A stretch of 64,000 bases of DNA, taken from assembly GCF_003351045.1 (NCBI RefSeq), contig NZ_QQZY01000003.1:186001-250000 (forward strand). The letters run 5' to 3'. The translations under genes and the position numbers were made by a program. Under the pieces are notes generated by a model. The model saw only the letters and a list, made by a program, of their open reading frames with translations, ran no database searches and had not been told where the DNA came from. Origin of the DNA: Gaiella occulta. GTDB lineage: Bacteria; Actinomycetota; Thermoleophilia; Gaiellales; Gaiellaceae. Shown here one piece after another: positions 30,188 through 59,124 of the stretch (within the stretch, counting starts at the first letter, position 1; the number at the start of each line of letters is the position of its first letter).

Positions 30188-31168
30188 TCAGTGACTCGGG
30201 ATCGTCCCGAAGAAGGCCTCGCCGGGGAGGGACGCGTCGAGCGCGTCGAGGCGGAACGGCGCGCCGGCACGATCGAGGGCCGTGAGGAGCGCGCCGGCGA
30301 CCGGCTCGCGCGACGATCGCACCGGCGTCGCGCCGGGCACGCGGGCGAGGATCTCCTCGATCAGCGTCTCGGCGCCCTCACCGCGTAGCACCCCTCCGAG
30401 AAGGACGACGGGGAAGGAGAGCTCGAGCCCGACGCGAGCAGCCGCGACCCGGGCCACGTCGCCGAGCTTCGTCCCGTGCCGCCGCACGATCGACGATGCG
30501 ACAGGGTCGCCCGCAGCGGCCAGGCTCAGCACCGCGGGTGCGAAGAGCGCCGCGTCGAAGGGCCGACGCCCACCTCGTCGGGTGAAGGCGTGCAGGACGT
30601 CCTCGACGCTCGCCGCCTGGAAGACTTCGAGGGCGTCGATCGTCAGGCCCGTCGGCGGGCCGGTGCCGAGCTCTGCCTCGTAGACGGCGTCGAGAGCGTC
30701 CGAGCCGAGCGCCCAGCCGCCGGTGTGCAGCGCCCACCAGCTCGAGTGCCACTCGCGACCGTCCGGCCCGCGCGCACCGACACAGCCGCCGGTGCCGCAG
30801 ACGACCGAGACGCCGATGCCGTCGCTCGTACCCGCGCGAAGGGCTCCGAGCGCGTCGTTGACGACAGACACGTCGGCGGAGGGCACGAGCCGGGCGAGCG
30901 CGGCGTGGAGATCTGCCTTGTCCTCGTCCCAGTCCGCGCCCGCGAGGCTGAACACCGCGGCATCGACGTCGCCGCGCCGCGCGCCGGCGGCCTCGAGCGC
31001 GCTCGCGACGGCCAGCTCGATCTCCCTGATCGCCGCCTCGAACGAGGGCGCCCCGTAGATGTCGGAGCAGCCTGCGCGGCCGGCGCCGACGATCGTCCCG
31101 TCGCTCCGCGCCGCAAGGGCCACGGTCTTGGTGTTGCCGCCGTCGACGCCGAGCGCGAGACCTCTCAC
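30188..31168 (-). CDS. BadF/BadG-type sugar kinase, probably N-acetylglucosamine kinase-like
   Basis: A 326-residue ASKHA-fold protein. The phosphate-1 motif is LGVDGGNTKTVALAA at the N-terminus. VFSLAGADWDEDKADL and VVNDALGALRAG carry the catalytic Asp region. VVCGTGGCVGARG is phosphate-2 and VVLLGGVLRGEG is near the adenosine site. This subfamily includes N-acetylglucosamine and glucosamine kinases. The GTG start overlaps the GH4 stop by 4 bases, making it the last gene of the sugar operon, so its natural substrate is probably the sugar released by the GH4 enzyme. Confidence 0.82.
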   Translation of the reverse strand: MRGLALGVDGGNTKTVALAARSDGTIVGAGRAGCSDIYGAPSFEAAIREIELAVASALEAAGARRGDVDAAVFSLAGADWDEDKADLHAALARLVPSADVSVVNDALGALRAGTSDGIGVSVVCGTGGCVGARGPDGREWHSSWWALHTGGWALGSDALDAVYEAELGTGPPTGLTIDALEVFQAASVEDVLHAFTRRGGRRPFDAALFAPAVLSLAAAGDPVASSIVRRHGTKLGDVARVAAARVGLELSFPVVLLGGVLRGEGAETLIEEILARVPGATPVRSSREPVAGALLTALDRAGAPFRLDALDASLPGEAFFGTIPSH

Positions 31169-32469
31169 GGCGCGAGGAGGCGATCCGGCAGGAACGCGCG
31201 ATGAGCGGCCGACAGCTCCGCGTAGACGGCCTCCGCCTTCTCCACCGAAAGGACGAGCGGGTTCGCCGCGAGCGCCCGGATCGCGTCCCGCCTCGTCCCC
31301 GACCAGGCGGCTTCGGCCGCCAGCATCTGATACTCGGCGAGCATCTCTACCAGCCCGCGCAGGTGCCTGGGCAGCTCGGGCTGGGCGAGGGGCTGCACCC
31401 ACTGCGCGTCGCAGCGCCCGGTCACCTCGACGACGAGGTCGTCGCAGAACCCGGGCAGCGAGCCGCGATTCGGCACGTTGACGGGGAGGACGTCACCCGT
31501 GTCGTTGAAGACCGCGTGCATCGCGTCGATCGCGAGCTCGAGCTCGTGGATTCCTCCCCGCGAGCGGGCAGGGTCGAGCACGGGATCGTCCGTCTCGGCC
31601 TGCTCGGCGTAGTGATCCCAGTAGCCCGGCACCCACGACAGGATGTCCTCCGCCCGCGTCTTCGGCTTGGCCAGCTGCTCGGCCAGGACCTCGTCGCGCC
31701 AGTAGTAGTAGAGGAAGTAGTCGGCCGGGATCGACTCCATGGCGGAGGCCAGCCGCAGGAGCCTCTGCTCCCCGACCGACAGGGGGGAACCCGGGGCGAG
31801 CGCCTGACACGCTTCATGGACATAGGGCATCAGGTCACCGCCGTCGAAGGCGTGCTCGACGCTCCAGCAGGCATGGTTGAGGCCGATCATCCGGGACGTC
31901 ACGCGCTCCGGGTCGAGCCCCGCCGCCTGCGCGAGCTCGGCGGTGAAGGAGTACGGCCCCTCGCACAGCGACACGAGCGGGATCGCGCAGTTCGACGTCC
32001 ACGCCTGGGCGACGACGTTCACCGGGTTCGTGTAGTTGAACACCTTCGCGTGCGGGCACACCGCATCGATGTCGGCGGCGACCGCCTTCATCACCTCGAT
32101 CGCGCGCAGCGCCATGAAGAACCCGCCGACGCCCTGCGTCTCCTGGCCTATCAACCCGTGCGCGTTGGCGGTGCGCTCGTCGAGCGCGCGCGCCTCGAAG
32201 CCGCCGGGGCGAAAGCTGGAGAGGACCGCGTCACAGGCGTCGAGCCCGGCGCGGCGGTCGGTCGTCGACGAGACCGCGATGTCGAGGCCGCGCGCGCGGG
32301 CCATCTTGCGCGCGAGCGTCTCGACCAGCGAGAGCCGATCCGGGGCGATGTCGATCAGGGCGATCTCGGAGCCGTCGAAATCGGCCCCTCGATGGTGGAT
32401 GAACGACGCCATCGTTCCGGCGGCCCGCGTGGAGCCGCCTCCGAGATAGGCCATCTTGATCCGTGCCAT
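31165..32469 (-). CDS. Glycoside hydrolase family 4 enzyme
   Basis: A 434-residue NAD- and metal-dependent glycosidase. The Rossmann motif is IKMAYLGGGSTRAAG at the N-terminus. The sugar/phosphate segment is FNYTNPVNVVAQAW. The metal ligands are probably the Cys in VSLCEGPYS and the His in GLNHACWSVEH. GH4 enzymes cleave alpha- or beta-glycosides by an oxidation-elimination route, many on 6-phosphosugars. Here transport is by ABC rather than PTS, so a non-phosphorylated substrate is likelier. The ATG has a good AAAGGAGAG just upstream; the open frame beyond it is a shadow. Confidence 0.88.
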   Translation of the reverse strand: MARIKMAYLGGGSTRAAGTMASFIHHRGADFDGSEIALIDIAPDRLSLVETLARKMARARGLDIAVSSTTDRRAGLDACDAVLSSFRPGGFEARALDERTANAHGLIGQETQGVGGFFMALRAIEVMKAVAADIDAVCPHAKVFNYTNPVNVVAQAWTSNCAIPLVSLCEGPYSFTAELAQAAGLDPERVTSRMIGLNHACWSVEHAFDGGDLMPYVHEACQALAPGSPLSVGEQRLLRLASAMESIPADYFLYYYWRDEVLAEQLAKPKTRAEDILSWVPGYWDHYAEQAETDDPVLDPARSRGGIHELELAIDAMHAVFNDTGDVLPVNVPNRGSLPGFCDDLVVEVTGRCDAQWVQPLAQPELPRHLRGLVEMLAEYQMLAAEAAWSGTRRDAIRALAANPLVLSVEKAEAVYAELSAAHRAFLPDRLLAP

Positions 32470-32479
32470 CGCTCTCCTT

Positions 32480-33562
32480 TCAGGTCGCGAGCGCCACGCC
32501 GGTGGTGGCATCGAAGAGGTGCAGCGAGCCGACCGCGAGCCCGAAGGCGACCGTATCGCCGATGCCGATCCGGACATTGCCTTCGGCCTCGATCACGAAG
32601 CGGGCGCCGTCGGCGGCCTCGACGCCGATGAAGGTCTCCCGGCCGAGCGCCTCGACGTACTCGACCCGGCCGCTGAACGGGCCGGCGAGCGAAGCGCCGT
32701 CGACCCACGGCCGGCAGTGCTCCGGGCGCACACCCACGATCACCTCTCCCGGCACGTCGAGCCCGCGCTCCCCGAGCGGCACGCGAAGGTCGCCGCGGGT
32801 CAGCGCTGGTGCCGCTCCCGCTCCGGACGACATCGCGACCAGCGACATCGCCGGGCTTCCGATGAAGGTCGCCACGAACGTGTTCGCGGGGTGCGAGTAA
32901 ACCGTGTCCGGATCGCCGACCTGCTCGAGCCGTCCCTGGCTCATGACGGCGATCCGGTCGCCCATCGTCATCGCTTCCACCTGATCGTGGGTGACGTAGA
33001 CGGTCGTCGTCCCGACCGCACGCTGCAGCCTCCTGATCTCCCCCCGGGTCTGAGCTCTCAGCTTGGCGTCGAGGTTGGAAAGGGGCTCGTCCATCAGGAA
33101 CGCCTTCGGCTCGCGCACGAGCGCCCGGCCGAGCGCGACGCGCTGCCGTTGCCCGCCGGAGAGCTGACGGGGCTTGCGGCCGAGCAGTTCCTCGATTCCG
33201 AGTGCCTCGGCTGCCGAGAAGACTCTGCGATCGATCTCGCTTCGCGGGATCTTGGCCATCTTGAGGCCGAAGGCGAGATTCTCGCGCACCGACATCTGCG
33301 GGTACAGCGCATAGTCCTGGAACACCATCGCGATGTTGCGTCGGCGCGGAGCGACGCGGTCGACGACCTCGTCCCCGATCCTGATGTGCCCGGCCGAGAG
33401 CCCCTCCAGGCCGGCGAGCAGCCGCAGCGCCGTGGTCTTGCCCGAGCCGGACGGCCCGACGAGCACCATGAACTCGCCGTCCGCGATCTCGAGTGACAGG
33501 TCGTTCAGGGCGACCACGTCGCCGAAGCGCTTCGCCGCGCGGTCGTAGGAGATGGAGGTCAC
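32480..33562 (-). CDS. ABC sugar transporter ATP-binding protein (UgpC/MsmK type)
   Basis: A 360-residue ATPase with Walker A GPSGSGKTT at about 36-44, the Q-loop in VFQDYALYPQM, signature LSGGQRQRVALGRAL and Walker B FLMDEPLSNLD. The switch His is in YVTHDQVEA. The C-terminal 120 residues form the TOBE/MalK-type regulatory domain. It powers the adjacent carbohydrate importer. It starts 4 bases after the second permease gene. Unlike many actinobacteria that share one MsmK for several importers, this locus has its own. Confidence 0.92.
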   Translation of the reverse strand: MTSISYDRAAKRFGDVVALNDLSLEIADGEFMVLVGPSGSGKTTALRLLAGLEGLSAGHIRIGDEVVDRVAPRRRNIAMVFQDYALYPQMSVRENLAFGLKMAKIPRSEIDRRVFSAAEALGIEELLGRKPRQLSGGQRQRVALGRALVREPKAFLMDEPLSNLDAKLRAQTRGEIRRLQRAVGTTTVYVTHDQVEAMTMGDRIAVMSQGRLEQVGDPDTVYSHPANTFVATFIGSPAMSLVAMSSGAGAAPALTRGDLRVPLGERGLDVPGEVIVGVRPEHCRPWVDGASLAGPFSGRVEYVEALGRETFIGVEAADGARFVIEAEGNVRIGIGDTVAFGLAVGSLHLFDATTGVALAT

Positions 33563-33566
33563 CGGC

Positions 33567-34388
33567 TCAGCCCTTCAGTGATCCGGAGACCATGCCCCGG
33601 ATGAAGTGTCGTTGGAGGAAGACGTAGACGAGCAGGACGGGGAAGGCGACGATGATCGACGCCGCGGCGAGGAGCTGAACGTGTGTCTGTCGCTGGGTCT
33701 GGAAGAAGACGAGCGAGAGCGGTGCGGTGAGGATGTTCTGTCCCGACAGCATCACGAGCGAGAGCAGGAAGTCGTTCCACGTCCACATGAACACGAGCAC
33801 GACCATCGTCAGGATCGCGGGGCGGCCGTACGGGAGTAGCACGCGGACGAGCACTCCGAGGCTCGAGGCGCCGTCGATCCTCGCCGCCTCGATCAGCGAG
33901 CGTGGCGCCGAGAGGAAGAACGCGCGCATCCAGAACGTCCCGAACGCGATCGAGAGCGCCGTGCTCGGGAGGATCACCCCCCACACGGTGTCGGTGAGGC
34001 CGATCCGCCGGAAGTCGAAGTAGAGCGGGATGATCGTCGCCTCGAAGGGCATCAGGAGACCGAAGAGGAAGACGTAGAAGAGGAACGACGAGCCGCGGAA
34101 CCGCATCGTGCCGAAGGCGTACCCGGTCAGCAGCGACAGCACGGTCGAGAGCGCCACCGTCGTCGAGGTGATCATCGCGCTCGTCCAGAGCGACGACCCG
34201 AAGGCGCCCTCCTTCCACGCCTGGCGGAACGAGTCGAGCGTGAACGGATCGGGGATCGCGAAACCCGAGACCACCGCGTCGGGCCCGTGGAACGCGGTGA
34301 GCAGGATGCCGGCGATCGGGGCGAGCGCGAGGACCGAGAAGAGGACGAGGAGCCCGTAGTTCACGGCCCGCTCCAGTGTCCCGCTCAC
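33567..34388 (-). CDS. ABC sugar transporter permease (MalG/AraQ type)
   Basis: A 273-residue membrane protein with six helices. The EAA loop that contacts the ATPase is EAARIDGASSLGVLVRVLLPYGRPA. The C-terminus HFIRGMVSGSLKG is typical of this family. The GTG overlaps the first permease stop by 4 bases. Together with the 312-residue permease, the ATPase and the binding protein it forms a CUT1-type carbohydrate importer. Confidence 0.92.
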   Translation of the reverse strand: MSGTLERAVNYGLLVLFSVLALAPIAGILLTAFHGPDAVVSGFAIPDPFTLDSFRQAWKEGAFGSSLWTSAMITSTTVALSTVLSLLTGYAFGTMRFRGSSFLFYVFLFGLLMPFEATIIPLYFDFRRIGLTDTVWGVILPSTALSIAFGTFWMRAFFLSAPRSLIEAARIDGASSLGVLVRVLLPYGRPAILTMVVLVFMWTWNDFLLSLVMLSGQNILTAPLSLVFFQTQRQTHVQLLAAASIIVAFPVLLVYVFLQRHFIRGMVSGSLKG

Positions 34389-35323
34389 GTCGAGCTCCGT
34401 TCCCCGACCCGCGTGATCGCGAACGCGACGATGAAGATGGCGATCGCGAGCACGATCCCGATCGCCGCTCCGAGCCCGGCCTCGCCGGTCTGGAAGGCGG
34501 CCGTGTAGAGCCGGTAGGACGGGACGCTCGTCGACGTCCCCGGGCCGCCGCCGGTCATCACGTACACGAGGTCGAAGCTCCGAAGTGCGGCTGTCGTCGT
34601 GAGAACGAGGACGACGACGATCTCGTTCCGCAGCCCCGGGAGGGTGACGACGAAGAACTCCCGTACGGGGCCGGCGCCGTCGACGCGCGCGGCGTCGTAC
34701 AGGCTCGTCGGGATCTTCTGCGCTCCGGCGACGAGCAGCACCATGGCGAGGCCGAACATCACCCACGTGCCGACGAGCCCGACCGACGGCAGCGCCCAGC
34801 CGAAGTCGCCGAGCCACGGGCGAGCGGAGCTCCCCAGCCCGGCGGCGCGGAGGCCCTCGTTGAGGGGGCCGTCAGGAGCGAGGATCCAGCGCCAGACGAT
34901 GCCGACGGAAACCAGCGCGACGACCTGCGGCAGGAAGAGGACGGCCCGGAAGACGGAGATGCCGCGCACTCGCATCCTCGAGAGCAGTGCGGCGAGGAGG
35001 AGCCCGAGCACGAGCGGAAGCAGCGCGTAGAAGAGCACGAGCACGAGCGCGTGGGTGAACGTCTCGCGCACCTGCGGGTCGGTGAAGACGCGGCGGTAGT
35101 TGTCGAGGCCGACCCACGCCGACGGCGTGATGCCGTCCCAGGCGTGGAACGAGATCCAGAGCGTGTGCCCGAAGGGCACGAGCACGAAGGCCGCGTAGAC
35201 GAGCAGCCCCGGGAGGACGTACAGGTAGCCGATCCGGCGCGGCTCACCGGGGGGACGGACGTCCCCCCGGTGTCGCCCACCGGCCGCCTCGACCGAGGCG
35301 GCCGCCGTCATCACGCCCGCCAC
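34385..35323 (-). CDS. ABC sugar transporter permease (MalF/UgpA type)
   Basis: A 312-residue membrane protein. About 30 polar N-terminal residues precede six membrane helices beginning YLYVLPGLLVYAAFVLVPFG. The EAA-type loop is DAARVDGAGPVREFFVVTLPGLRNE, and DLVYVMTGGGPGTST is the usual late motif. It starts 10 bases after the binding-protein gene. It pairs with the downstream permease to form the importer channel. Confidence 0.92.
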   Translation of the reverse strand: MAGVMTAAASVEAAGGRHRGDVRPPGEPRRIGYLYVLPGLLVYAAFVLVPFGHTLWISFHAWDGITPSAWVGLDNYRRVFTDPQVRETFTHALVLVLFYALLPLVLGLLLAALLSRMRVRGISVFRAVLFLPQVVALVSVGIVWRWILAPDGPLNEGLRAAGLGSSARPWLGDFGWALPSVGLVGTWVMFGLAMVLLVAGAQKIPTSLYDAARVDGAGPVREFFVVTLPGLRNEIVVVLVLTTTAALRSFDLVYVMTGGGPGTSTSVPSYRLYTAAFQTGEAGLGAAIGIVLAIAIFIVAFAITRVGERSST

Positions 35324-35333
35324 GCCCGACGGC

Positions 35334-36656
35334 CTACGTGCTGTGGAACTTCAGATAGTCGCCGTCGAGCTTCTTCGCGAACGAGGCGGGGGTGAGCTTC
35401 CCGGCCATCAGCTCCTGGATGGCCGCGGTGATCGTGTCGTAGAACGTGGGGGTCGCCCAGTCCATGTACCCGGCCATCGCGTTCGTCTTGCTGAGCTTCG
35501 CCCACCCGGTGATCGCGTCGCCGCGGACCCCGGAGCCGGGCTTCGCCGTCACCACGATCGCGGGGACGTCACCGGCGGCCTGGATCACCTTCGCGGCGGC
35601 CGGGCTCGTGATGAAGTCGATGTACTTCGCCGAGAGCTCCTTGTTCTTCGCCTTCGCCGGGATCGCCCAGGCGAGGCCACCGCTCGCCAGCGCGCCCGGG
35701 GTCTTGCCGGCGCGCGCGCTCGGGAGCAGCATCAGGCCGACGTTGTCCTTGAGCGAGCTGGCCATGTCACCGGTCTTCCAGGTTCCGGTGATGGTGAAGA
35801 CGGCGCCACCCTGCTGGAACTTCTTCGTCGCGTCGTCGTAGCCGAGGCCCGAGAAGCCGTCGGAGTAGTAGCCGGCCTGCGCCCACTTCTGGACCGTCCC
35901 GGCCGCCTTCAGCACCGCTGCTGTCGACCACTTCGATCCCTTCTTGCCGAAGATCGTGCTCCCGACCTGGGCGGCCGGCGCGACGGCCATCAGCACGGAC
36001 TGGAACTCGTGGATCCCGGGCCACTTGTCGAGGTTCCCGAATGCGATCGGCGTCTCCCCGGCCGTCTTGGCGGCGGCGAGCGCCGTCTCGAACTCGGCGA
36101 GGGTCCTCGGCACGCCGATCCCGAGCGCCTTGAGCTTCGCCTTGTTGTAGAAGACGCCGACCCAGTCACCGGTGGTCGAGATCCCGTATAGGCTTCCGCT
36201 GCCGATCTGGCCCTTGGGGGTCGCGCGGCCGTCGATCGTGAGCAGGGCGGCGGACTGCCGCTTGCCCCAGCCCCACTTCGCCGCGTACCCGTCGAGCGGC
36301 GTGAGGAGCTTCGCCTTGACGAGCTGGCCGAGGTCGCCGAGCCCCTGGTTGACGTGGGTCACGTCGGGCGGGTTCGAGCCCGAAAGCTGGAGCGCGTCGG
36401 TCTTGACGAGGTCGGAGTACGACTTCGAGATGTGCTTGATCGTCACACCCGGATTCGCCTTCTCGAACAGCCTGTCCAGCTGCTTCAGGGCCGCGATGCG
36501 GGCGACGTTCCCACCCTCGCCGTCCTGGACGACGAGGGTCGTCGCCGACCTCGCGCCGGTCGCCTGCCCGGCGAGCACTGCGAGCGCGACGACGAGCATC
36601 GCCATGAAGGCGAGCGAGGCACGTGCCCTGCTGCCCGATGTGCGGGAGCGCGTCAT
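35334..36656 (-). CDS. Extracellular solute-binding protein, carbohydrate type (family 1)
   Basis: A 440-residue protein with a Sec signal (basic start, hydrophobic residues about 14-32, then AGQATGARSA). No lipobox Cys is present, which is unusual for a Gram-positive-type organism. The mature part shows the family fold, including LDRLFEKANPGVTIKHISKSYSDL and the hinge-like YGISTTGDWVGVFYNKA. It captures the sugar for the importer. The ATG overlaps the gntR stop, and GGAGGAGG lies 9 bases upstream, so high expression is likely. Confidence 0.9.
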   Translation of the reverse strand: MTRSRTSGSRARASLAFMAMLVVALAVLAGQATGARSATTLVVQDGEGGNVARIAALKQLDRLFEKANPGVTIKHISKSYSDLVKTDALQLSGSNPPDVTHVNQGLGDLGQLVKAKLLTPLDGYAAKWGWGKRQSAALLTIDGRATPKGQIGSGSLYGISTTGDWVGVFYNKAKLKALGIGVPRTLAEFETALAAAKTAGETPIAFGNLDKWPGIHEFQSVLMAVAPAAQVGSTIFGKKGSKWSTAAVLKAAGTVQKWAQAGYYSDGFSGLGYDDATKKFQQGGAVFTITGTWKTGDMASSLKDNVGLMLLPSARAGKTPGALASGGLAWAIPAKAKNKELSAKYIDFITSPAAAKVIQAAGDVPAIVVTAKPGSGVRGDAITGWAKLSKTNAMAGYMDWATPTFYDTITAAIQELMAGKLTPASFAKKLDGDYLKFHST

Positions 36657-37408
36657 GGTGTCATTCCTCCTCCTGGTCGCCGCTCCCGCACGAGGGTCGC
36701 GTGGAAGCGATAGCGGTCACTTCGATAGGCCGTCTCGCCCAGCTCGACGACGCGATTGGCACTGTCGTAGCTGGTCGTCCGGGCGAGGAGCAGAGGGTCG
36801 CCGACGGCGACGCCGAGCCTGCGCGCCTGAGCGGCATTCGCCGCGCAGGCCTCGGTGGTGTAGTCGGCCCGCACCAGTGCCGCCCCGGCCTCTTCCAGGA
36901 CGGAGTACAGGGATGCCTTCCTGAAGTCGACGTGCGGCAACTCGGGCGCGATCGCGATCGGGACACGCGTGTGGTCGAGTGCGACAGCCACACCGTCGAG
37001 CATCCGGAGGCGGTCGATCTCGAACATCTCCGCGCCCGGAGCGATCCCGATGCGCTCCGCCTCCTCGAGGGTGGCAGGGCGGACGCGCTTCCGCAGTACG
37101 CGCGCGGTCGCAGTCAGGCCTCGCCGTGCGCCGAGCTCGGTGAAGCTGAGCAGCGCGTTCGGAGGCTCCGCGAGAGCTACCTCGCTCACGTACCGTCCGC
37201 TCCCCGGTGCCGCCCGGACGAGGCCCTCGTCTGCGAGCGCGTCGAGCGCCCTCCTGATCGTCACGCGACTCACGCCGAGTCGCTCGGCGAGGTGCCGTTC
37301 GGACTGCAGGCGCGCGCCGGGAGGGATCCTTCCGGACCGGATCTGGGACTCGATGGCCTCACGCACCTGGTCGTGGAGAGGCCGTGGCCCGACGAGGGAC
37401 GCCGTCAT
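36653..37408 (-). CDS. GntR/HutC family transcriptional regulator with UTRA domain
   Basis: A 251-residue regulator. The winged helix is at about 8-75 (LHDQVREAIESQIRSGRIPPGARLQSERHLAERLGVSRVTIRRAL). The UTRA ligand domain is at about 95-235, with LRMLDGVAVALDHTRVPIA and a C-terminal VVELGETAYRSDRYRFH. HutC-type proteins sense sugar phosphates or amino sugars. It heads the importer operon and diverges from the SIS gene, so it probably controls both directions. CATACT lies just before its start on the minus strand. Confidence 0.92.
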   Translation of the reverse strand: MTASLVGPRPLHDQVREAIESQIRSGRIPPGARLQSERHLAERLGVSRVTIRRALDALADEGLVRAAPGSGRYVSEVALAEPPNALLSFTELGARRGLTATARVLRKRVRPATLEEAERIGIAPGAEMFEIDRLRMLDGVAVALDHTRVPIAIAPELPHVDFRKASLYSVLEEAGAALVRADYTTEACAANAAQARRLGVAVGDPLLLARTTSYDSANRVVELGETAYRSDRYRFHATLVRERRPGGGMTP

Positions 37409-37460
37409 GCCGCGGGAGTATGCGGAACGAATTGGTCGAGGTCAAGTCTCGATGTGGTCT

Positions 37461-37504
37461 GTCACTGGTATGTGACTCGTCCGATTGGTATGGTTGCCGA
37501 CCAT
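37461..37504. promoter_or_regulatory. Candidate operators in the gntR/SIS divergent region
   Basis: GTCAC-N6-GTGAC (37461-37476) and ATGGT-N5-ACCAT (37490-37504) are inverted repeats. The word TGGTATG occurs at 37466-37472 and 37486-37492, exactly 20 bases apart. The second site overlaps the TATGGT -10-like box (37489-37494) and the start codon of the SIS gene. A bound repressor would block that gene directly. The GntR protein encoded next door is the obvious candidate. Confidence 0.5.
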
Positions 37505-38507
37505 GGCTTCGTGGCGTGAGACGTACCTCTGGAGGGAAACCCTTGCCGTCCCCGAGTCGCTCGCCAGGACGGCGTCCGACACGGAGGGGATCGACGCGGT
37601 CGCGCGACTTCTCGGCGACCCGGGCGTGCGGAGGATCGTCGCGACCGGGAACGGCGCGGCGTACTATGCCGCCGTCGCTCTCTGGCTCGCGTCCCTCGAC
37701 GGCCGGAGCGGCCCGGACGTCCTTGCTCTGCCGGCAGGACTCGTGGCGAAGGGAGCGTTCCGCTGGCGCGAGGGCGACGCGCTGCTCGCGTTCTCGTCGT
37801 CCGGCGAGATGCGCGACGTCATCGAGGCTCTCGATGCCGGCGCACCGACCCCGTTCGCCGCTGTCACGGCGAGCCCGGGATCGACGATCGGCTCGCGCGC
37901 CGACGCCGTCGGTCTCGTCACGATCGAGTCGCAGGACGCAGTGACGCACACGCAGGGATTCTGCGGGAACGTGCTGGTGGCGTTGGCCGTCTGGGCGACG
38001 ATCACGGGCGACGCGGGACTCCGTGCCGCCGTGCTCGATGCGCCGGATGCCGTGGAGGGGTCCTGCGAGGCGGCCGAGGAGTGGGCGCTCGCCCTGCCGT
38101 GCCTCGCGCCGTCGGCGGGGGTGGTGTTCGGCTCGGGCCCGGCCTGGGCAGGCGCGCTCGAGGGGGCGCTGTTGCTGAAGGAGGTCGCGTGTCTCCCGGC
38201 GGAGGGAGTCGAGACCCGGGAGGGCGCGACGTCCGCGATGTACCCGCTCGGTCCCGGGCACGTCGTCGTGAGCCTCCCGACCGGACCCGACGCGGTCATC
38301 GACGAGGCCGAGGCGATCTGCGCCGCACGCGGTGCGACCGTCCTGCGGGCACCGGGTGGGGCGCGCGGCGATCGGCGATTGGCCGCGCTGACGACCTTCC
38401 CTGCTCTGATCGCCCTTTCGGCCAGGCTCGGGACGGAGCGCAAGCTCGACGTCGACCAGCCCTCCTGGACGGACGCCTACTACGCCGTTGCGCGCGGTTC
38501 GGCATGA
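37503..38507 (+). CDS. SIS domain sugar-phosphate isomerase/deaminase-like protein
   Basis: A 334-residue protein with two SIS domains. The first has VRRIVATGNGAAYYAAVALWLAS and LLAFSSSGEMRDVIEAL; the second has VVFGSGPAWAGALEGALLLKEVACLPAEGVE. The layout matches the isomerase half of GlmS, AgaS and fructosamine deglycases, which act on amino-sugar phosphates. With the kinase and glycosidase it suggests amino-sugar breakdown. The ATG lies 8 bases after TATGGT and inside a candidate operator; no ribosome binding site is seen. Confidence 0.83.
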   Translation: MASWRETYLWRETLAVPESLARTASDTEGIDAVARLLGDPGVRRIVATGNGAAYYAAVALWLASLDGRSGPDVLALPAGLVAKGAFRWREGDALLAFSSSGEMRDVIEALDAGAPTPFAAVTASPGSTIGSRADAVGLVTIESQDAVTHTQGFCGNVLVALAVWATITGDAGLRAAVLDAPDAVEGSCEAAEEWALALPCLAPSAGVVFGSGPAWAGALEGALLLKEVACLPAEGVETREGATSAMYPLGPGHVVVSLPTGPDAVIDEAEAICAARGATVLRAPGGARGDRRLAALTTFPALIALSARLGTERKLDVDQPSWTDAYYAVARGSA

Positions 38508-39616
38508 GCCTCGGGATCGGTGTCCTCGGGTGCGGCAGCGTCTTCGCCGGACCGTACGCAGGGATGATCGATCGACTGCACGCGCATGGGCGCGTCCACG
38601 TCGCCGCGGTGTACGACGTCGACGACCGGAAGCGCCGCGGCGCTGCCGGTCGTTACGACGTCGAGCCCGACCTCGCCGGTCCCGGCGCGCTCATCTCGCG
38701 CGACGACGTCGATGTCGTGCTGGTGCTGACGAGTATGAACGAGCACGGGCCGCTCTCGCGCGCAGCCCTCGAGGCCGGCAAGCACGTCCTCGTCGAGAAG
38801 CCGCTCGCGACGAGCCTCGAGGAAGCGTCAGCGCTCGTCGAGCTCGCGAAGACGGCGCCGGGCCTGCTCGTCTGCGCGCCTCACGTCCTCCTCAGCCCGA
38901 CGTTCCGCGCGATCCACGCCTGCGTCCGGGAGGGTAGGATCGGGCGGCTGCTGTCCGGTCGGGCGCGTTACGGCTGGGCCGGGCCGTGGTGGGCGGACTG
39001 GTTCTACCGGCCGGGGGGCGGATCGCTCTTCGACCTCGGTGTCTACAACGTGACGACGCTTTGCGCGCTCTTCGGTCCTGCGCGTCGCGTCACGGCGATG
39101 GTCGGCACGGCGATCCCCGAGCGTGATGTGAGCGGGCGGGTGATCCCGGTCGAGGCCGACGACAACGCGCACGTGCTCCTCGACTTCGGCGACGCGCGAT
39201 TCGCGGTCGTGAGCACCGGGTTCACGATGCAGCGCTACCGGTCACCGGCCGTCGAGCTGTACGGGTCGGAGGGCACGGCGCAGCTCCTCGGCGACGACTG
39301 GGCGCCGGAGGGCTGGGAGCTGTGGCGGAACGAGGAGGCCTCCTGGAGGCTCATGCCCGAGGCCGACCCGCACTGGCAGTGGACCGACGGGTTGCGACAC
39401 CTCGTGGACTGCGTCGAGGCGGGAGTGCCCACAGCGACGCGCCCCGAGCATGCCCTGCACGCGCTCGAGATCATGCTCGCCGCGCAGGCGGCAGGTCGCG
39501 ACGGGGTCGCCCGGCAGATCCGGACGGGGTTCCCGGAGCCTGTGTACGACGGCGCGATGCTCGCAGCCGAGGAGGCACACCGCTCGCACGACAGGCGAAG
39601 CCACGATGGGATATGA
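38504..39616 (+). CDS. Gfo/Idh/MocA family NAD(P)-dependent oxidoreductase
   Basis: A 370-residue protein. The Rossmann motif is IGVLGCGSVFAGPYAGM, the conserved EKP is in HVLVEKPLATSLEEA, and the C-terminal alpha/beta domain begins near GRIGRLLSGRARYGW. Members oxidise or reduce sugars, inositols or sugar amines. It overlaps the SIS stop by 4 bases and the bicupin gene by 11 bases, so the three divergent genes form one unit. The reaction cannot be fixed by eye. Confidence 0.86.
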   Translation: MSLGIGVLGCGSVFAGPYAGMIDRLHAHGRVHVAAVYDVDDRKRRGAAGRYDVEPDLAGPGALISRDDVDVVLVLTSMNEHGPLSRAALEAGKHVLVEKPLATSLEEASALVELAKTAPGLLVCAPHVLLSPTFRAIHACVREGRIGRLLSGRARYGWAGPWWADWFYRPGGGSLFDLGVYNVTTLCALFGPARRVTAMVGTAIPERDVSGRVIPVEADDNAHVLLDFGDARFAVVSTGFTMQRYRSPAVELYGSEGTAQLLGDDWAPEGWELWRNEEASWRLMPEADPHWQWTDGLRHLVDCVEAGVPTATRPEHALHALEIMLAAQAAGRDGVARQIRTGFPEPVYDGAMLAAEEAHRSHDRRSHDGI

Positions 39617-40454
39617 ACCGTCGCCGCGCCCGACGTTCGACCAGCCGACGGCGCTGCCGTTCGCGGACGTCGCGCGGCACACGTGGGGTGACGCCGAAGC
39701 CGGTCTCGTGGACGACTGGATCTACGTGTCGAGCGGCCTCCTTCACACGATCGTGTTCGGGATGGAGCCTGGTGGGTGCTTTCGCCACTCGGGGGACTTC
39801 CGAACGGTGTTCGGCGCGGATGAGGTTCTCCACGTGCTCCAGGGCACGTTCGTGCTGGCGAACCCCGAGACGGGCGAGGTAGTCCGTCTCGAGACGGGCG
39901 ACAGCGTGTTCTTTCGGAAGAACACCTGGCATCACGGCTTCTCCTTCGGCGCGGAGCCCGTGCGCGTGCTCGAGTTCTTCGCGCCGCCTCCGTCGACCGG
40001 TGCGTCGGGTCCGTATGCGCGGACGAGGCCGTATCTTCCTGAGGGCAAGTGGGCGTACGGCGACGACGCTCTGATCGGCGCTTTGCCAGGCGCGCATCGA
40101 GCCGACGGCGGAACGCTCCATCCGATCAGAGCGGCCGACCGCACCCACCGGCTAGAGGGTGACGCGCTCGTCGGCATCGTCGCCAGTACCGAGCACCTCA
40201 CCGTCACGACGGTGAGGCTCGTTCCCGGGTCATCGAGCGATTCCGTGGCCCGCGGGGGAGACGTCCTGGTCTTCGTCGAGGACGGGAAGCTCGCCGTGCA
40301 CGCCGAGTGGAACGGTGCCCGGAGTACGATGGAGCTCGGACGCTGGGATGCCGCGTACCTGCCCTTCGGCACCACGTACCGGCTTCAGGGTGAGGGCACG
40401 GGACCGGTCGATGCGGTTGTCGGCGTCGCCCCGTCGTACGCTCGCTCTGCCTGA
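39606..40454 (+). CDS. Two-cupin-domain protein
   Basis: A 282-residue protein with two cupin folds. The first (about 45-130) has metal-ligand candidates in FRHSGDFRTVFGADEVLHVLQG and in FFRKNTWHHGFSF. The second (about 195-275) lacks an obvious full ligand set. It resembles ectoine/mannose-type sugar-binding bicupins, but I cannot name a reaction. It is last in the SIS-oxidoreductase-cupin unit. It may be an isomerase or an epimerase for the imported sugar. Confidence 0.75.
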   Translation: MGYEPSPRPTFDQPTALPFADVARHTWGDAEAGLVDDWIYVSSGLLHTIVFGMEPGGCFRHSGDFRTVFGADEVLHVLQGTFVLANPETGEVVRLETGDSVFFRKNTWHHGFSFGAEPVRVLEFFAPPPSTGASGPYARTRPYLPEGKWAYGDDALIGALPGAHRADGGTLHPIRAADRTHRLEGDALVGIVASTEHLTVTTVRLVPGSSSDSVARGGDVLVFVEDGKLAVHAEWNGARSTMELGRWDAAYLPFGTTYRLQGEGTGPVDAVVGVAPSYARSA

Positions 40455-49742: not shown

Positions 49743-51581
49743 TCAAGCGCCGGTGTCGTCCTCGAGGATCTCGACCGTGCCCGCGGCGCCGTCGACACGA
49801 AGGCGTTGACCCGTACGGATTCGCTTCGTGCCGAACCCGGTGCCGACGACGGCGGGAAGCCCGTACTCGCGCGACACGATCGCGGCGTGCGCCATGATCC
49901 CGCCGATGTCCGACACGGCCGCCTTGATGCGGCTGAAGACCGGCGCCCAGCTCGGCGCCGTGATCGGGCAGACGAGGATCTCCCCGTCCTCGACGTCCTC
50001 GAGCTCGGCCGCGGAGAAGATCACGCGTGCCGGCCCCTCGGCCACGCCGGGTGCGGCGCCGATGCCCTGCAGGACGCCGGAGTCGTCGCCGCCCGCGTTG
50101 CGCCAGCGGTCGACCGTCTCCTCGGTGATGCCCCACAGCATCACGGTGAACGGCTCCGTGATCGAGTCAGGCACCTTGCCGAGAGCGGGAGGCGGCGACC
50201 AGCGGCGCAGCGCCTCCATGATCCGCTTGCGGTCGGCCACCTCGCGCTGCCAGTACGCGCGCCGGTCGGGGGTCTCGGTCGCCCAGCCGGTGATCAGGTC
50301 GGCGAGCGCCGGGTGGACCTCGTGCCGCTGCAGCAGGAAGACGTCCTCCTTGTCGTCGAGGAAGCCGTGGGCGGCGAAGACCGCCCCGAGCTCCCGCACC
50401 TTGTTCCAGAACAGCGAGTAGTGCTGGTGCTCCGCGTAGAAGTTGTGGTTTTCGACGAACGGGTAGACGGTGCGGGCGAGCGCGACGAGGCCGTCGAAGG
50501 CGGCACGATCGTCGTCGCTGCCGAGGAGCGCCCGGTACTCCGAGGTGATGCGGTCGCGCTCGGCCTGCACGCCCTCGAGCGGCCGGTCGATCTCGTCGCC
50601 GCGAACGAGCTTCTCGACGTACGTCTTCAGCGCGCCGAACGGCGTCCGCAGGTCGTCGATCCACGCCCTGTCCCCGTGCGTGAGCCCGGCGCCGGTGGAG
50701 AACCAGAACCACGGCTCCTTCGCCGTCTCCAGCGCGGCGATCCACTCGTCTCCCCTCGGCGCCTGCGCGACGGCGGAGAGCACAGCCTCCGGTGTGTCGC
50801 CGCGAGCGAGCTGGTCGACGAGACCGAGCTCGACACCGAGCCGCGCCAGCTTCCGGAGTTCGTCGTCCGGCCGGAACATGAGGATGTCGATCCCCGCGAC
50901 CATCTTGGCGACGTTCTGGTCGCTGATGCCCGGGAACGCGCGCTGGCAGAGCTCACGGAACGTCATGTAGGCGCCGTAGCCGAGGCCGAGCATCTCGAAG
51001 TGCAGGTACGCCATCTCCTGCACGTTCTCGAGCAGCTCGTTGTAGGAGCGCGCGAGGTGGAAGCCGCTCGTCAGCTCGCGCGCCTGCGTCACGACCTCGT
51101 CCGGCTCGACGTCGGGCAGCGGCTCGAACGTGATGCGCGTCAGTCGCTGCCGGCAGTCGTTTGCCTTGGCCACCCAGTTCTCGTAGATCTCGTCCCAGTT
51201 CTCGAAGTAGTGGCCGGCGCGGGGGTTGAAGTACGCGGCGCGACGAGCGATCTCGTCGGGGTCGGTGATCATCGTGGGGCTGACGTAGACGTAGCCGTTC
51301 ACGACCCGGTGGTCGAGCCCGAGCGCCGTCGGCACGACGAACACCTTGGTGGTGTTCTGGTTGAGGATCAGCCAGGTGTTCTCCGGCATCAGCAGGTCGA
51401 AGGGGTACATCGGCTCGGGGTAGTGCATCGAGTCGTGGAACCAGAACTTCTCGTCCTCGAACGCGCGGCGATCCTCGCTGAAGCAGGCGTAGTACGGGTA
51501 GAGGCGCTGCCAGCCCTCCGCGCCTTCGGGCGTCTCCACCTCGAAGGGGCTCTGGAAGTTCGCCGGTGCGCGGTCGCTCAT
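49743..51581 (-). CDS. PEP-utilising (phosphohistidine) domain protein, phenylphosphate synthase PpsA-like, copy 1
   Basis: A 612-residue soluble protein. The long N-terminal part (1 to about 480) is shared with the 610-residue protein at 59121-60953 along its whole length (for example HRVVNGYVYVSP, FRELCQRAFPGI and GIDILMFRPDDE). The C-terminal 90 residues are a PEP-utilising mobile domain with His565 in GGIMAHAAIVSREYGLPAVV, the phospho-carrier His of dikinases. The size and layout match the 70-kDa subunit of phenylphosphate synthase, which passes phosphate from the ATP-grasp subunit to a phenolic hydroxyl. GGAGGAG precedes the ATG, which overlaps the deformylase stop. It is the last gene of the operon. 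Confidence 0.85.
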   Translation of the reverse strand: MSDRAPANFQSPFEVETPEGAEGWQRLYPYYACFSEDRRAFEDEKFWFHDSMHYPEPMYPFDLLMPENTWLILNQNTTKVFVVPTALGLDHRVVNGYVYVSPTMITDPDEIARRAAYFNPRAGHYFENWDEIYENWVAKANDCRQRLTRITFEPLPDVEPDEVVTQARELTSGFHLARSYNELLENVQEMAYLHFEMLGLGYGAYMTFRELCQRAFPGISDQNVAKMVAGIDILMFRPDDELRKLARLGVELGLVDQLARGDTPEAVLSAVAQAPRGDEWIAALETAKEPWFWFSTGAGLTHGDRAWIDDLRTPFGALKTYVEKLVRGDEIDRPLEGVQAERDRITSEYRALLGSDDDRAAFDGLVALARTVYPFVENHNFYAEHQHYSLFWNKVRELGAVFAAHGFLDDKEDVFLLQRHEVHPALADLITGWATETPDRRAYWQREVADRKRIMEALRRWSPPPALGKVPDSITEPFTVMLWGITEETVDRWRNAGGDDSGVLQGIGAAPGVAEGPARVIFSAAELEDVEDGEILVCPITAPSWAPVFSRIKAAVSDIGGIMAHAAIVSREYGLPAVVGTGFGTKRIRTGQRLRVDGAAGTVEILEDDTGA

Positions 51582-52459
51582 CGTGCTCCTCCATCGGTTT
51601 CGGGCAACGGGTCGGCCCCGCCGGGCGCGCCCCGGCCGTGCAGGGTGCGGGCGAGGAACGGTCGGACGATCGCGAGGAAGCCGGCCAGGTCGTCCCAGGG
51701 CAGCATGTGGCCGGCGCCGGGCAGGACGGCGACCTCGGCCGCCGGGTTGGCCGCCGCGACCTCCGCCGCGCCGGTCTCGCCGACGACGGGGCCGGCGCCG
51801 CCCCAGACGAACAGGGTGGGAGAGTGCAGGCGCACCCAGTCCTCGAAGAAGTCCTCCTCGTGGAAGAGGCGGTGGGTCTCGACCACCGCCGTCTCGTCGC
51901 AGGTGCCGAGCCAGGCGGCGCGGAGCTCGAGCTGCTCCTGCGTCCAGGTCGGGAAGAACGGTCGCATGTCGTCGGCGCTGGCGCCGGCCCGGGCGAGGCG
52001 GAGCGACTCGACGAACGCCTCCACCGGGGTCGGGTACGGCGCGCGCCCGGGCCCGCTCAGCGGCGGGTCCGCCACGACCAGCGGGCCTCGCAGCGCCGGG
52101 TAGAGCGCGCCGAACGCGGCGGCGATGCGGGCGCCGGCGGAGTGGCCGAGAACCGCCGGCCGGTCGAGCTCGAGCGCCGCGAGCGCCTCCGCGACGTCGC
52201 GCGCGAGCTCTTCCCGCGCGTAGCTTCGTCCCCGCTCCGAGAGACCGCGCCCGCGCACGTCCATGGTGAGGACGCGGAACTCGGAGGCGAGCTCGAGAGC
52301 CACGAACTCCCAGGTCACCGCGGGGCTGGTGATTCCCGGAAGGATCACGAGGGCGGGCAGGTGCGCCGCGCCGTACTCGAGGAAGTGCAGGCGGAGGCCG
52401 TTCGCCTCCACCGTGCGGCTGCGTCCGACCGGTTGCGTCGGGGGCGCGTGCGTGCTCAC
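51578..52459 (-). CDS. nicD: N-formylmaleamate deformylase (NicD-like alpha/beta hydrolase)
   Basis: A 293-residue alpha/beta hydrolase. Ser107 is in VLGHSAGARIA, and His251 is in GAGHMLPWDDL. LVILPGITSPAVTWEFV, MDVRGRGLS, DPPLSGPGRAPYP and DDMRPFFPTWTQEQLELRAAWL agree closely, from memory, with Pseudomonas NicD. That enzyme hydrolyses N-formylmaleamate to maleamate and formate in nicotinate breakdown. Its place in an operon with NicX-, NicE- and NicF-like proteins supports the same reaction. It overlaps both neighbours by 4 bases. Confidence 0.9.
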   Translation of the reverse strand: MSTHAPPTQPVGRSRTVEANGLRLHFLEYGAAHLPALVILPGITSPAVTWEFVALELASEFRVLTMDVRGRGLSERGRSYAREELARDVAEALAALELDRPAVLGHSAGARIAAAFGALYPALRGPLVVADPPLSGPGRAPYPTPVEAFVESLRLARAGASADDMRPFFPTWTQEQLELRAAWLGTCDETAVVETHRLFHEEDFFEDWVRLHSPTLFVWGGAGPVVGETGAAEVAAANPAAEVAVLPGAGHMLPWDDLAGFLAIVRPFLARTLHGRGAPGGADPLPETDGGAR

Positions 52460-53085
52460 GACGCCGCCTCGGCGAGGCGCTGATCGAGCTCGGCCAGCAC
52501 GGCCTCGAGCCGGTCACGGGCGGTGGCGCGGGCGTGATCGAGGCGCACCCGCTCGCACATCCAACGGAGCTTCTCGCGGCCCTTCTCGAGGCTGCACGAT
52601 CCGTCCAGCACCCAGCCCGCGACGAGCTGCCCGTTCACCTCGAGGAAGGAGATCGAGTCGGCTGCCTGCATCAGGTCGCCCTCGGGCGAGCCGCCGAATT
52701 CGTGCTCGCGAATCGGCAGCACGCCCTCGACGAAGCGCGCGGACGCCCCCTTGCCGACCAGCCAACCGGCGACCACCGCAGCCGACCGGTCGCAGTGGGC
52801 GCGGTTGTAGTCGACGTCGTCCCATGCCTGTCGCCCCTTGTCGAGGATGGGGCCGCCGCGGATCGAACGCTCCATGTCGTGCATCAGCGCGGCCAGCACG
52901 AGCGGCTCCGGCGCCTCGGGCTCGACTGCGAGCAGCCAGTCGCCCGCCCGTGACAGGTGCACGCCGTCGTAGTACGGGCCGATCCACTCGAGCGCGAGGC
53001 GCCGCAGCTCCAGGAACTCGTCGCTGAAGGCGCGGTCGGCGGGGAGTGCGCCGGGCGCCGGCGTGACGATCACCCCGTCAGGCAC
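52456..53085 (-). CDS. HD domain protein, putative phosphohydrolase
   Basis: A 209-residue soluble protein. His43, the His69-Asp70 pair in AALMHDMERS and a later His in IREHEFGG are placed like the metal ligands of HD hydrolases. Most HD proteins hydrolyse phosphate esters or nucleotides. It is not one of the known Nic enzymes. It sits between the SRPBCC subunit and the deformylase and overlaps both (8 and 4 bases). One idea is removal of phosphate from a phosphorylated pyridine intermediate; this is inference only. Confidence 0.75.
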   Translation of the reverse strand: MPDGVIVTPAPGALPADRAFSDEFLELRRLALEWIGPYYDGVHLSRAGDWLLAVEPEAPEPLVLAALMHDMERSIRGGPILDKGRQAWDDVDYNRAHCDRSAAVVAGWLVGKGASARFVEGVLPIREHEFGGSPEGDLMQAADSISFLEVNGQLVAGWVLDGSCSLEKGREKLRWMCERVRLDHARATARDRLEAVLAELDQRLAEAAS

Positions 53086-58351: not shown

Positions 58352-59124
58352 GGCGCACCGGTCGCGGCGACGTCCGCGGCGAGCATGCGGCCGCCGCCGG
58401 CGACCGTCGGCGACAGGCCGAGCGCGAGCAGGATCGACCGCGCCGTTGCCGTCGCGGCGGTCACGACCGGGATGCCGACCTCGCCCTCGACGAGCTCGAC
58501 CACCTCCAGGCTGGGCATCTGCACGCAGGCGGAGAGGACGAGCGCGTCGAGGTCGTCGCGGTCGCAGACGCGGCGTGCCTGCTCGACGAGGACGTGCGAC
58601 GGGATGCGCCCGACCTCGACGTTGTCCGAGACCTCGAGCGCCACGAGGTCGGCCACCTCGATCTCCTCGGCGCGGACGTAGTCGGCCACGAGCTCGGCGA
58701 GCGGCCGCATGTAGGGAGTGATCATTGCGACGCGCCGGGCGCCGATCGCCTGCAGACCGTCGATCAGGGCTCCCGCGCTGGTGACGACCGGCGGCTGACG
58801 GGGTGACTGCTCCAGCGCGCCCTCGAGTCGTGCCTGCACGTCACGGTGGGCGCCCGGCCCGCGGGCCATCACGGCCACGAGGCAGGCGTACGCGATCACC
58901 TCGACCGGGGCGTCGGCGAGCGACTGGGCGGCCACGTCGGAGGCCTGCACCATCCGGTCGAGCTCCTCGGCCGTGACGTGCGACAGGCGCGCCCGTGCGG
59001 AGTGCCAGGTGAACGATTCTCCCGTCGTCAGGCCGCGCCGCCGGAAGAGCTCGGGCAGCTCGGTCTCCATGGTCGTGTTCGAGCTCGGGACGATCAGTCC
59101 CACACGGCGTGCCTGGTCGCTCAC
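58348..59124 (-). CDS. nicE: Maleate cis-trans isomerase (NicE-like)
   Basis: A 258-residue Asp/Glu-racemase superfamily enzyme. It starts RVGLIVPSSNTTMETELPELF. The two catalytic Cys are Cys81 (IAYACLVAV) and Cys200 (LSACVQMPSL), placed as in characterised maleate isomerases. It converts maleate to fumarate, the exit of the maleamate pathway into the citric acid cycle. The close match to Pseudomonas NicE along its length is from memory. It overlaps both neighbours by 4 bases. Confidence 0.9.
   Translation of the reverse strand: MSDQARRVGLIVPSSNTTMETELPELFRRRGLTTGESFTWHSARARLSHVTAEELDRMVQASDVAAQSLADAPVEVIAYACLVAVMARGPGAHRDVQARLEGALEQSPRQPPVVTSAGALIDGLQAIGARRVAMITPYMRPLAELVADYVRAEEIEVADLVALEVSDNVEVGRIPSHVLVEQARRVCDRDDLDALVLSACVQMPSLEVVELVEGEVGIPVVTAATATARSILLALGLSPTVAGGGRMLAADVAATGAP

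Follow-up and report, generated by a model that had tools for sequence, protein, structure and literature searches.

In Escherichia coli, the chb operon couples import of an amino-sugar disaccharide by a phosphotransferase system (PTS) to a cytosolic family 4 glycoside hydrolase (GH4), ChbF, and a deacetylase, ChbG, with no kinase. The hexosamine pathways built on NagK and NagB-II, or on AgaS and AgaK (the latter presumably belonging here), instead combine a BadF-type kinase with a SIS protein that adopts the GlmS/NagB-II fold. The E. coli ycj operon joins an ABC sugar importer to annotated guloside and glucoside 3-dehydrogenases, which we take to be of the Gfo/Idh type. Oxidation-elimination pathways that employ 3-keto-glycoside eliminases or GH188 enzymes oxidize C3 with Gfo/Idh-like enzymes; neither of the papers describing them contains the term cupin, and no amino sugar figures in the pathways they present (PMC10628242, PMC10755693). 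Each system resembles a part of the sugar locus that we analyzed at positions 30188-40454 of a 64,000-nucleotide stretch of Gaiella occulta DNA (contig NZ_QQZY01000003.1; this whole stretch is called the window).

The locus encodes a GH4 glycosidase, an ABC importer, a BadF-type kinase and a divergent SIS-oxidoreductase-bicupin unit. Its GH4 is only 27% identical to that of chb, and no SIS protein, oxidoreductase or bicupin occurs in the chb stretch compared. We rejected orthology to chb given the ABC import, the lack of a PTS enzyme I over cut-off, and the lack of ChbG among the ten proteins. The locus differs from the NagK/NagB-II and AgaK/AgaS pathways in its additional GH4, oxidoreductase and bicupin and in its SIS protein, from which residues retained in GlmS and AgaS are missing; the GalNAc (aga) pathway was likewise rejected, as neither a tagatose-phosphate aldolase nor a deacetylase is among the ten. 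The ycj operon has the epimerase YcjR and the phosphorylase YcjT in place of the bicupin, GH4 and kinase, and the oxidation-elimination pathways provide a possible precedent for the oxidoreductase. The initial annotation of this DNA had stated that the combination matched no pathway familiar to it, and we found no clear orthology of the set to a chitobiose, galacturonate or inositol pathway. A literature search, with most subscription journals outside its scope, returned nothing describing the gene combination, a GH4 acting on glucosamine, these GH4 motifs, or a BadF-type kinase with GH4.

All ten genes are intact as first described, and each protein matches a Pfam family above cut-off. On the minus strand, in order of transcription, they are:

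36653-37408, minus strand: GntR/UTRA regulator (Pfam, NCBIfam)
35334-36656, minus strand: CUT1 sugar-binding protein (SBP_bac_1)
34385-35323, minus strand: CUT1 permease 1 (BPD_transp_1)
about 33567-34394, minus strand: CUT1 permease 2 (BPD_transp_1; start codon inferred)
32480-33562, minus strand: CUT1 ABC ATPase with a MalK-type TOBE domain (Pfam; UgpC subfamily, 425.6 bits, cut-off 432)
31165-32469, minus strand: GH4 glycosidase of a clade with the motif CEGP (C169, E170, H199, Y251; PF02056/PF11975, tree)
30188-31168, minus strand: BadF/BcrAD-family sugar kinase (PF01869, 82.2 bits), its start overlapping the GH4 stop

The divergent plus-strand unit reads:

37503-38507, plus strand: divergent double-SIS protein, GlmS/NagB-II-like (Pfam SIS, 26.6 bits; AlphaFold2 (AF2) model)
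38504-39616, plus strand: Gfo/Idh/MocA oxidoreductase (GFO_IDH_MocA, 69.8 bits)
39606-40454, plus strand: bicupin (Cupin_2, 40.9 bits; AF2 model)

Stop and start codons overlap at SIS/oxidoreductase and oxidoreductase/bicupin as well as at GH4/kinase. Pfam identified a complete CUT1 importer (SBP_bac_1, two BPD permeases and a MalK-type ATPase), and none of the NCBIfam matches listed for the ten proteins (the best 25 for the ATPase and the GntR protein) reached its curated cut-off, the ATPase coming nearest among them.

We interpret these genes as a cassette for breaking down a glycoside that contains an amino sugar, in a bacterium that has no recognizable PTS, a reading to which we assign a probability of roughly 0.5 on sequence comparison. 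The comparisons that carry it concern gene content, conservation, the GH4 clade, the NagB-like and BadF-type company of that clade elsewhere, and the lack of NagB and enzyme I matches over cut-off. In the proposed sequence of steps, the GntR regulator would sense the sugar and the CUT1 importer would take up the unphosphorylated glycoside. The BadF-type kinase would then phosphorylate its non-reducing amino sugar, as the intracellular counterpart of the PTS that serves ChbF, and the GH4, which we infer to be an NAD+- and metal-dependent hydrolase, would split the phospho-glycoside into an amino-sugar 6-phosphate and the other moiety. Deamination of the former towards fructose 6-phosphate would follow, by a NagB-like enzyme elsewhere and by the SIS protein or another enzyme here, while the oxidoreductase and bicupin might act on the other moiety, oxidizing or isomerizing it before it is phosphorylated.

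A clear orthologue of the window-type GH4 was found in 7 of 299 genomes of the class, the window's own included, with 61-68% identity for the six relatives; one further genome (8/299 in all) has a 120-residue fragment of 73% identity. None of the four other genomes listed for the genus has it, and its distribution within the class is sporadic. It is the sole PF02056 match in the window genome. An E value of 1e-90 was passed in 3 of 396 genomes of a phylum sample and, among 240 genomes of the class of a Hyphomicrobiales metagenome-assembled genome (MAG), by that MAG only. No relative of the GH4 was found on viral contigs, and none of the SIS protein on plasmids. When long stretches of the six relatives were compared, the binding protein, both permeases, GH4, oxidoreductase and bicupin were present in all six, with binding protein, permeases and GH4 in that order on one strand. 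The kinase lies beside GH4 in five; in the sixth (L037) the contig ends inside GH4. The oxidoreductase lies ~8 kb from the bicupin in L033, and presence of the ATPase varies, as does that of the GntR gene. A ROK kinase adjoins the bicupin (in L032, the SIS gene) in all six, leaving the window alone of the seven without a neighboring ROK; its genome has three ROK matches elsewhere. Because the six relatives carry importer, GH4, oxidoreductase and bicupin together, the ten genes are not chance neighbors.

Membership of the glycosidase in GH4 is clear (PF02056, 130.4 bits, cut-off 23.2; PF11975, 121.1 bits, cut-off 24.1). Residues C169, H199 and Y251 align with ChbF C172, H203 and Y258, so that the metal-ligand Cys and His and the base Tyr of the family, roles that we in part presume, are present. 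The Cys and His roles have been described for BglT (available portion of PMC10755693). In a tree of 21 proteins, 13 CEGP sequences formed one clade (support 100/100) apart from the CN/CD and CH types; five rows, none of them CEGP, were flagged as long branches, and the deeper order is therefore unsure. Identity to the window GH4 is 53-66% inside the clade and at most 36% outside. The MelA type (CH motif) was rejected given the CEGP motif and the separate grouping of the three CH-type sequences.

All 13 clade members have CEGP at the position of the CN.P motif of ChbF-type enzymes. For the ChbF of Salmonella, the available portion of PMC13197890 names nine residues of the -1 subsite; eight are kept in every member (R96, E112, T113, N150, C172, H203, Y258 and R282), the L037 fragment covering the subsite columns aligned; the ninth, N173, is Glu in 13/13. 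The complete subsite of a 6-phospho-beta-glucosidase (ChbF/BglT) is thus lacking by one residue, as far as that source lists it. The R96 position is Arg in all aligned CEGP and CN/CD sequences and Cys, Leu or Met in the three CH-type ones. The initial annotation had suggested assigning the subfamily from such residues: a distinct clade emerged with a nearly complete ChbF-type subsite, Glu at the Asn173 position being the departure, and the literature consulted did not confirm which GH4 residues hold phosphate. The enzyme is a candidate for a new GH4 specificity. We dropped alpha-specificity on account of Glu170, since the other subsite residues are those of the beta/phospho type, and we assign no anomer. 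In the same class, L038-L051 contain more distant GH4 genes, whose motifs are mostly CN but include CDQH; BadF-like kinases lie close to them, and CUT1 importer genes frequently do too.

The same residues bear on the order of steps. The GH4 may act first on the unphosphorylated glycoside and the kinase then phosphorylate the freed amino sugar, with Glu170 either protonating an alpha-linked leaving group (it stands at what we take to be the place of the general acid of the alpha-type GH4 GlvA) or holding a 2-ammonium group. We regard GH4 first as nearly as likely as kinase first, and hold this explanation as a whole as a tentative second choice. It would account for the import of an unphosphorylated sugar by CUT1, for a kinase nearest to a GlcNAc kinase model (NagK_SO3507, 53.1 bits, far under the cut-off of 370), for a motif unlike CN.P, CD and CH, and for the loop after GGGS, which is TRAAG or TRAPG in the clade as opposed to SYTPE in ChbF. 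Set against it are the remainder of the -1 subsite, R96 and R282 included, which is as the available text lists it for the 6-phospho enzyme, and the nearest solved relatives by sequence, the 6-phospho-beta-glucosidases 1s6y and 5c3m.

The kinase-first order that we favor draws on the absence of a recognizable PTS. Enzyme I remained under the cut-off of 341.7 bits in the window genome (best 72.5 bits) and in six sisters; it does exceed the cut-off in the MAG and in G389, a genome of another class of the phylum. The view that an ABC importer stands in for a PTS was thereby upheld, and the puzzle of its pairing with GH4 was partly resolved, as a kinase beside a phospho-type GH4 is nothing unusual in the class: in all 14 fetched loci of more distant GH4s, a BadF-like kinase of 30-38% identity is encoded less than 4 kb away, with open frames touching or overlapping for 9 of their 15 GH4 genes. 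Since these loci share the kinase, it plausibly replaces PTS phosphorylation, and a kinase that phosphorylates imported disaccharides would plausibly feed a phospho-type GH4. The neighboring BadF-type kinase is thus a plausible answer to how such an enzyme works without a PTS.

That the substrate contains an amino sugar, as the initial annotation suggested, gained support from the clade's company elsewhere. In 6/6 CEGP-clade loci found outside the window's class (four Deinococcus plasmids, the Hyphomicrobiales MAG and G389), GH4, a NagB-like deaminase and a BadF-type kinase are contiguous. The Deinococcus plasmids, which are the only plasmid matches to the GH4 above 50% identity, vary upstream of it: L052 and L146 have a dipeptide-type importer before GH4, L053 only a binding protein (its permeases lie further off on the other strand), and L147 a LacI gene directly before it. 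G389 reads CUT1-GH4-NagB-BadF. In the MAG, GntR-GH4-NagB-BadF faces oxidoreductase, bicupin, ROK, binding protein, permeases and ATPase, which is the same pair of modules as in the window. Models of the nagB type were the best matches of the GH4-linked NagB-like proteins scanned, and that of D. psychrotolerans aligns to a solved GlcN6P deaminase (2bkv, E 9.8e-34). The nagB model scored at most 41 bits in 7/7 cassette genomes versus 168.7 in the MAG and 197.5 in G389, none of these nine genomes passing its cut-off of 236.9 bits, and the only PF01182 protein of the window genome is a 6-phosphogluconolactonase (166.3 bits, cut-off 124.45).

In the importer, the nearest named family of the binding protein is NgcE (80 bits, cut-off 399.65), and its nearest solved sequence is the chitin oligosaccharide binding protein NagB2 (E 3.6e-18). 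ChbF, according to the available portion of PMC13197890 (citing Walter et al. 2021), cuts GlcN6P-GlcNAc and is inactive on the acetylated form, and is therefore a precedent for GH4 enzymes acting on unacetylated amino sugars. Because the cassette contains no deacetylase and ChbF reportedly requires the amine to be free, a non-acetylated glucosaminide seems the likeliest substrate.

The SIS protein barely exceeds its Pfam cut-off of 25 bits, and its best PDB sequence match (E 3.7e-05) is to a sequence later solved as NagB-II. Its AF2 model (mean pLDDT 89.2) aligned over its full length with GlmS 1jxa (Z 36.4, root-mean-square deviation 2.3 over 321 residues), with NagB-II 8fdb (Z 34.3, 2.5 over 321; NagB-II range 30.3-34.3) and with GlcN6P deaminases (Z 32.6-35.5), as expected of a double-SIS fold of the GlmS/NagB-II group in the predicted model. 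It lay under both NCBIfam cut-offs (GlmD, 24.2 of 580 bits; NagB-II, 22.7 of 430). In an alignment with E. coli GlmS, AgaS and FrlB, it keeps GlmS Glu488, Glu481, Ser347 and Ser349 and changes His504 to Glu, Lys485 to Leu or Phe, Thr302 and Ser303 to Ala, Thr352 to Met or Phe, and Ser401 to His, so that the set of phosphate ligands and catalytic Glu/His of GlmD and NagB-II is not preserved; we assume the roles of these residues. The changes are shared by the window and twelve aligned orthologues, which represent seven distinct loci because five appear twice. His149 and Glu240 of the SIS protein are invariant. AgaS, in contrast, keeps His504, T302, S303 and K485. Since FrlB, annotated as acting on a 6-phosphate, also departs at S303, S349 and K485, phosphate binding may persist. 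As modeled, the protein looks like a true fold member whose active site has been altered, perhaps to accept a substrate that is unphosphorylated or already open. A deglycase of the frl/fra type was rejected given the change of the catalytic His to Glu relative to FrlB and the greater distance of the model from FrlB and FraB (Z 26.4 and 24.5, versus 36.4 for GlmS); MurQ etherase was also considered, and no murQ model matched at E 0.001. The divergent SIS protein stands in cassette genomes where NagB was not found, and if this swap of a rewired SIS protein for a NagB-like deaminase beside the same GH4 is real, it would be a case of non-homologous replacement. Two other SIS matches occurred in the window genome, a protein with two domains that is about as large as GlmS and a short one resembling GmhA; because the search missed the window's own SIS protein, a similarly divergent one elsewhere could escape.

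We also followed the bicupin beyond the class by scanning genome contigs, many of them short, with its alignment. This yielded 69 loci in Actinomycetota, Chloroflexota, Alphaproteobacteria and one Spirochaetales MAG. Carriers of the bicupin and ROK genes that are in culture include Shinella granuli DSM 18401 and Ensifer. Within 9.5 kb of the bicupin were a NagB-like variant (21/69), an IolE-like TIM barrel (15/69), a SIS protein (7/69) or any GH4 (10/69). The NagB-like proteins in bicupin context all lack the Glu after FN in DGHxAFNE (22/22, being 21 from the scan and plasmid locus L054), this Glu148 being replaced by Pro or Asn, whereas the other NagB type keeps it in 4/4 (two Deinococcus sequences, L104, and L093 beside a distant GH4). 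The alphaproteobacterial genomes L110 and L117, read in detail, and L125, seen by BLAST, which to judge by isolate codes are marine single-cell genomes, carry a related importer (34-50% identical to the window's), another GH4 (motif CHA in the two read), oxidoreductase, bicupin, NagB variant and ROK.

These patterns raise a different route, in which the oxidoreductase oxidizes the sugar, the bicupin isomerizes or epimerizes it, and the amino sugar, by then in a keto or open-chain form that needs no ring opening, is the substrate of the SIS protein or the NagB-like variant. The gene overlaps of SIS with oxidoreductase and of oxidoreductase with bicupin would fit, as would the changes of SIS His504 to Glu and of NagB Glu148 in two unrelated proteins of bicupin context; we take both residues to be ring-opening ones. 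As the roles of the lost residues are thus presumed and the best matches of oxidoreductase and bicupin are superfamily-wide, leaving their reactions unassigned, we consider this route unlikely. Equally speculative is the broader idea that oxidoreductase, bicupin and kinase form the core of an unrecognized amino-sugar oxidation pathway in Actinomycetota, Chloroflexota, Alphaproteobacteria and a Spirochaetales genome, feeding an amino sugar in keto or open-chain form to one of two enzymes that both lack the ring-opening residue (SIS in relatives of the window, the NagB variant elsewhere), and joined in the window to a new sugar-releasing GH4 subfamily.

The oxidoreductase and bicupin had first been proposed as later oxidation or isomerization steps. 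Action on the other moiety is a proposal, and the two look more like an independent travelling unit, in other loci often accompanied by ROK, than like later steps on the GH4 product. The bicupin has a confident bicupin fold (AF2, mean pLDDT 94.0) whose matches are general bicupins (quercetin dioxygenase, oxalate decarboxylase, BacB, ureidoglycine aminohydrolase; Z about 20-22). It showed no solved relative by sequence (best E 0.19, unrelated), no NCBIfam match, and general cupin matches only in Pfam. It is a lead on an uncharacterized protein found in several phyla, mostly with an oxidoreductase and ROK nearby. In the C-terminal half of the window's bicupin, an Arg replaces a His that is present in at least 90% of 40 aligned sequences. 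At L092 (3251-13423), a bicupin-ROK unit occurs with a glycine-betaine-type binding protein, a DeoC/LacD aldolase and a GMC oxidoreductase, and the module may therefore also serve another substrate class.

Two further explanations turn on this module. The substrate could be inositol-linked, for example glucosaminyl-inositol, with GH4 freeing glucosamine, the oxidoreductase serving as an inositol dehydrogenase and the bicupin as IolB. The best matches of the oxidoreductase point this way (inositol 2-dehydrogenase, 71.8 bits; a scyllo-inositol dehydrogenase that also has L-glucose dehydrogenase activity, E 5.8e-24), as does an IolE-like TIM-barrel protein (136.1 bits) in an Ensifer locus, but both scores are far under the family cut-offs (355 and 290). 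Moreover, no IolD-like protein occurred among 20 neighbor proteins scanned, the mycothiol amidase Mca model was unmatched in the window genome, and the bicupin resembles no family more closely than the general cupins, making this substrate improbable. The iol pathway itself was rejected, as IolG fell short and no other iol model appeared among the matches listed for the ten proteins. We give similarly little credence to two unrelated operons merely facing each other. That any GH4 stands near the bicupin in so few of its loci would agree with this, as would GH4-NagB-BadF without oxidoreductase and bicupin in G389 and on the four Deinococcus plasmids (L053 does encode, further along, a Gfo/Idh protein that is 23% identical); yet the window and 6/6 relatives join the two units, with gene order varying among them, the MAG joins them once more, and two alphaproteobacterial genomes join a related importer, oxidoreductase and bicupin to another GH4.

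Returning to the catabolic cassette for an amino-sugar glycoside, several observations weigh against it. Substrate and step order are proposals from sequence, and GH4 might equally well precede the kinase. The initial annotation's seven-plus-three layout recurs in full in only one relative, L034: the GntR gene is absent from five of the six and SIS was not found in L033 (present in 5/6). Some sister genomes are only 81-96% complete. The loss of T302, S303, T352, K485 and His504 argues against the SIS protein being an ordinary amino-sugar-6-phosphate deaminase, and it is in one operon with the oxidoreductase and bicupin, not with GH4 and the kinase. The five GH4-linked NagB-like proteins scanned (124.7-198 bits) all fall under the nagB cut-off, one such protein is named 6-phosphogluconolactonase in its record, and an enzyme-I-like protein reaches 291.1 bits in the sister G189. 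The bicupin's company is incomplete, with the oxidoreductase directly upstream in 42/67 loci with room and ROK directly downstream in 40/57 with room, and rhizobial loci use a different Gfo/Idh protein. Finally, a NagA-like protein over cut-off is encoded elsewhere in the window genome, so that acetylated sugars could also serve; inspection by eye of a crude gene call recognized no deaminase around that gene.

The divergent promoter region holds one further feature:

37466-37492, plus strand: direct repeat TGGTATG-N13-TGGTATG, operator candidate

It matched once in the window and in 0 of 100 shuffles. The two TGGTATG copies are 20 bases apart in the window and 22 apart at the same intergenic place in L034, the relative that keeps the GntR gene. 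Pairs with a 10-18-base spacer occurred in 2 of 163 loci, L034 and L070, which are one genome twice. The repeat is the best operator candidate of the locus on sequence grounds.

Elsewhere in the window, two minus-strand proteins (open-frame limits 49746-52634 and 59124-61724) are alike by eye, and their C-terminal parts, perhaps a PEP-utilizing domain, gave weak matches to PTS enzyme I (28.8 and 29.4 bits). An open frame resembling a maleate isomerase or racemase overlaps the 59124-61724 stretch.

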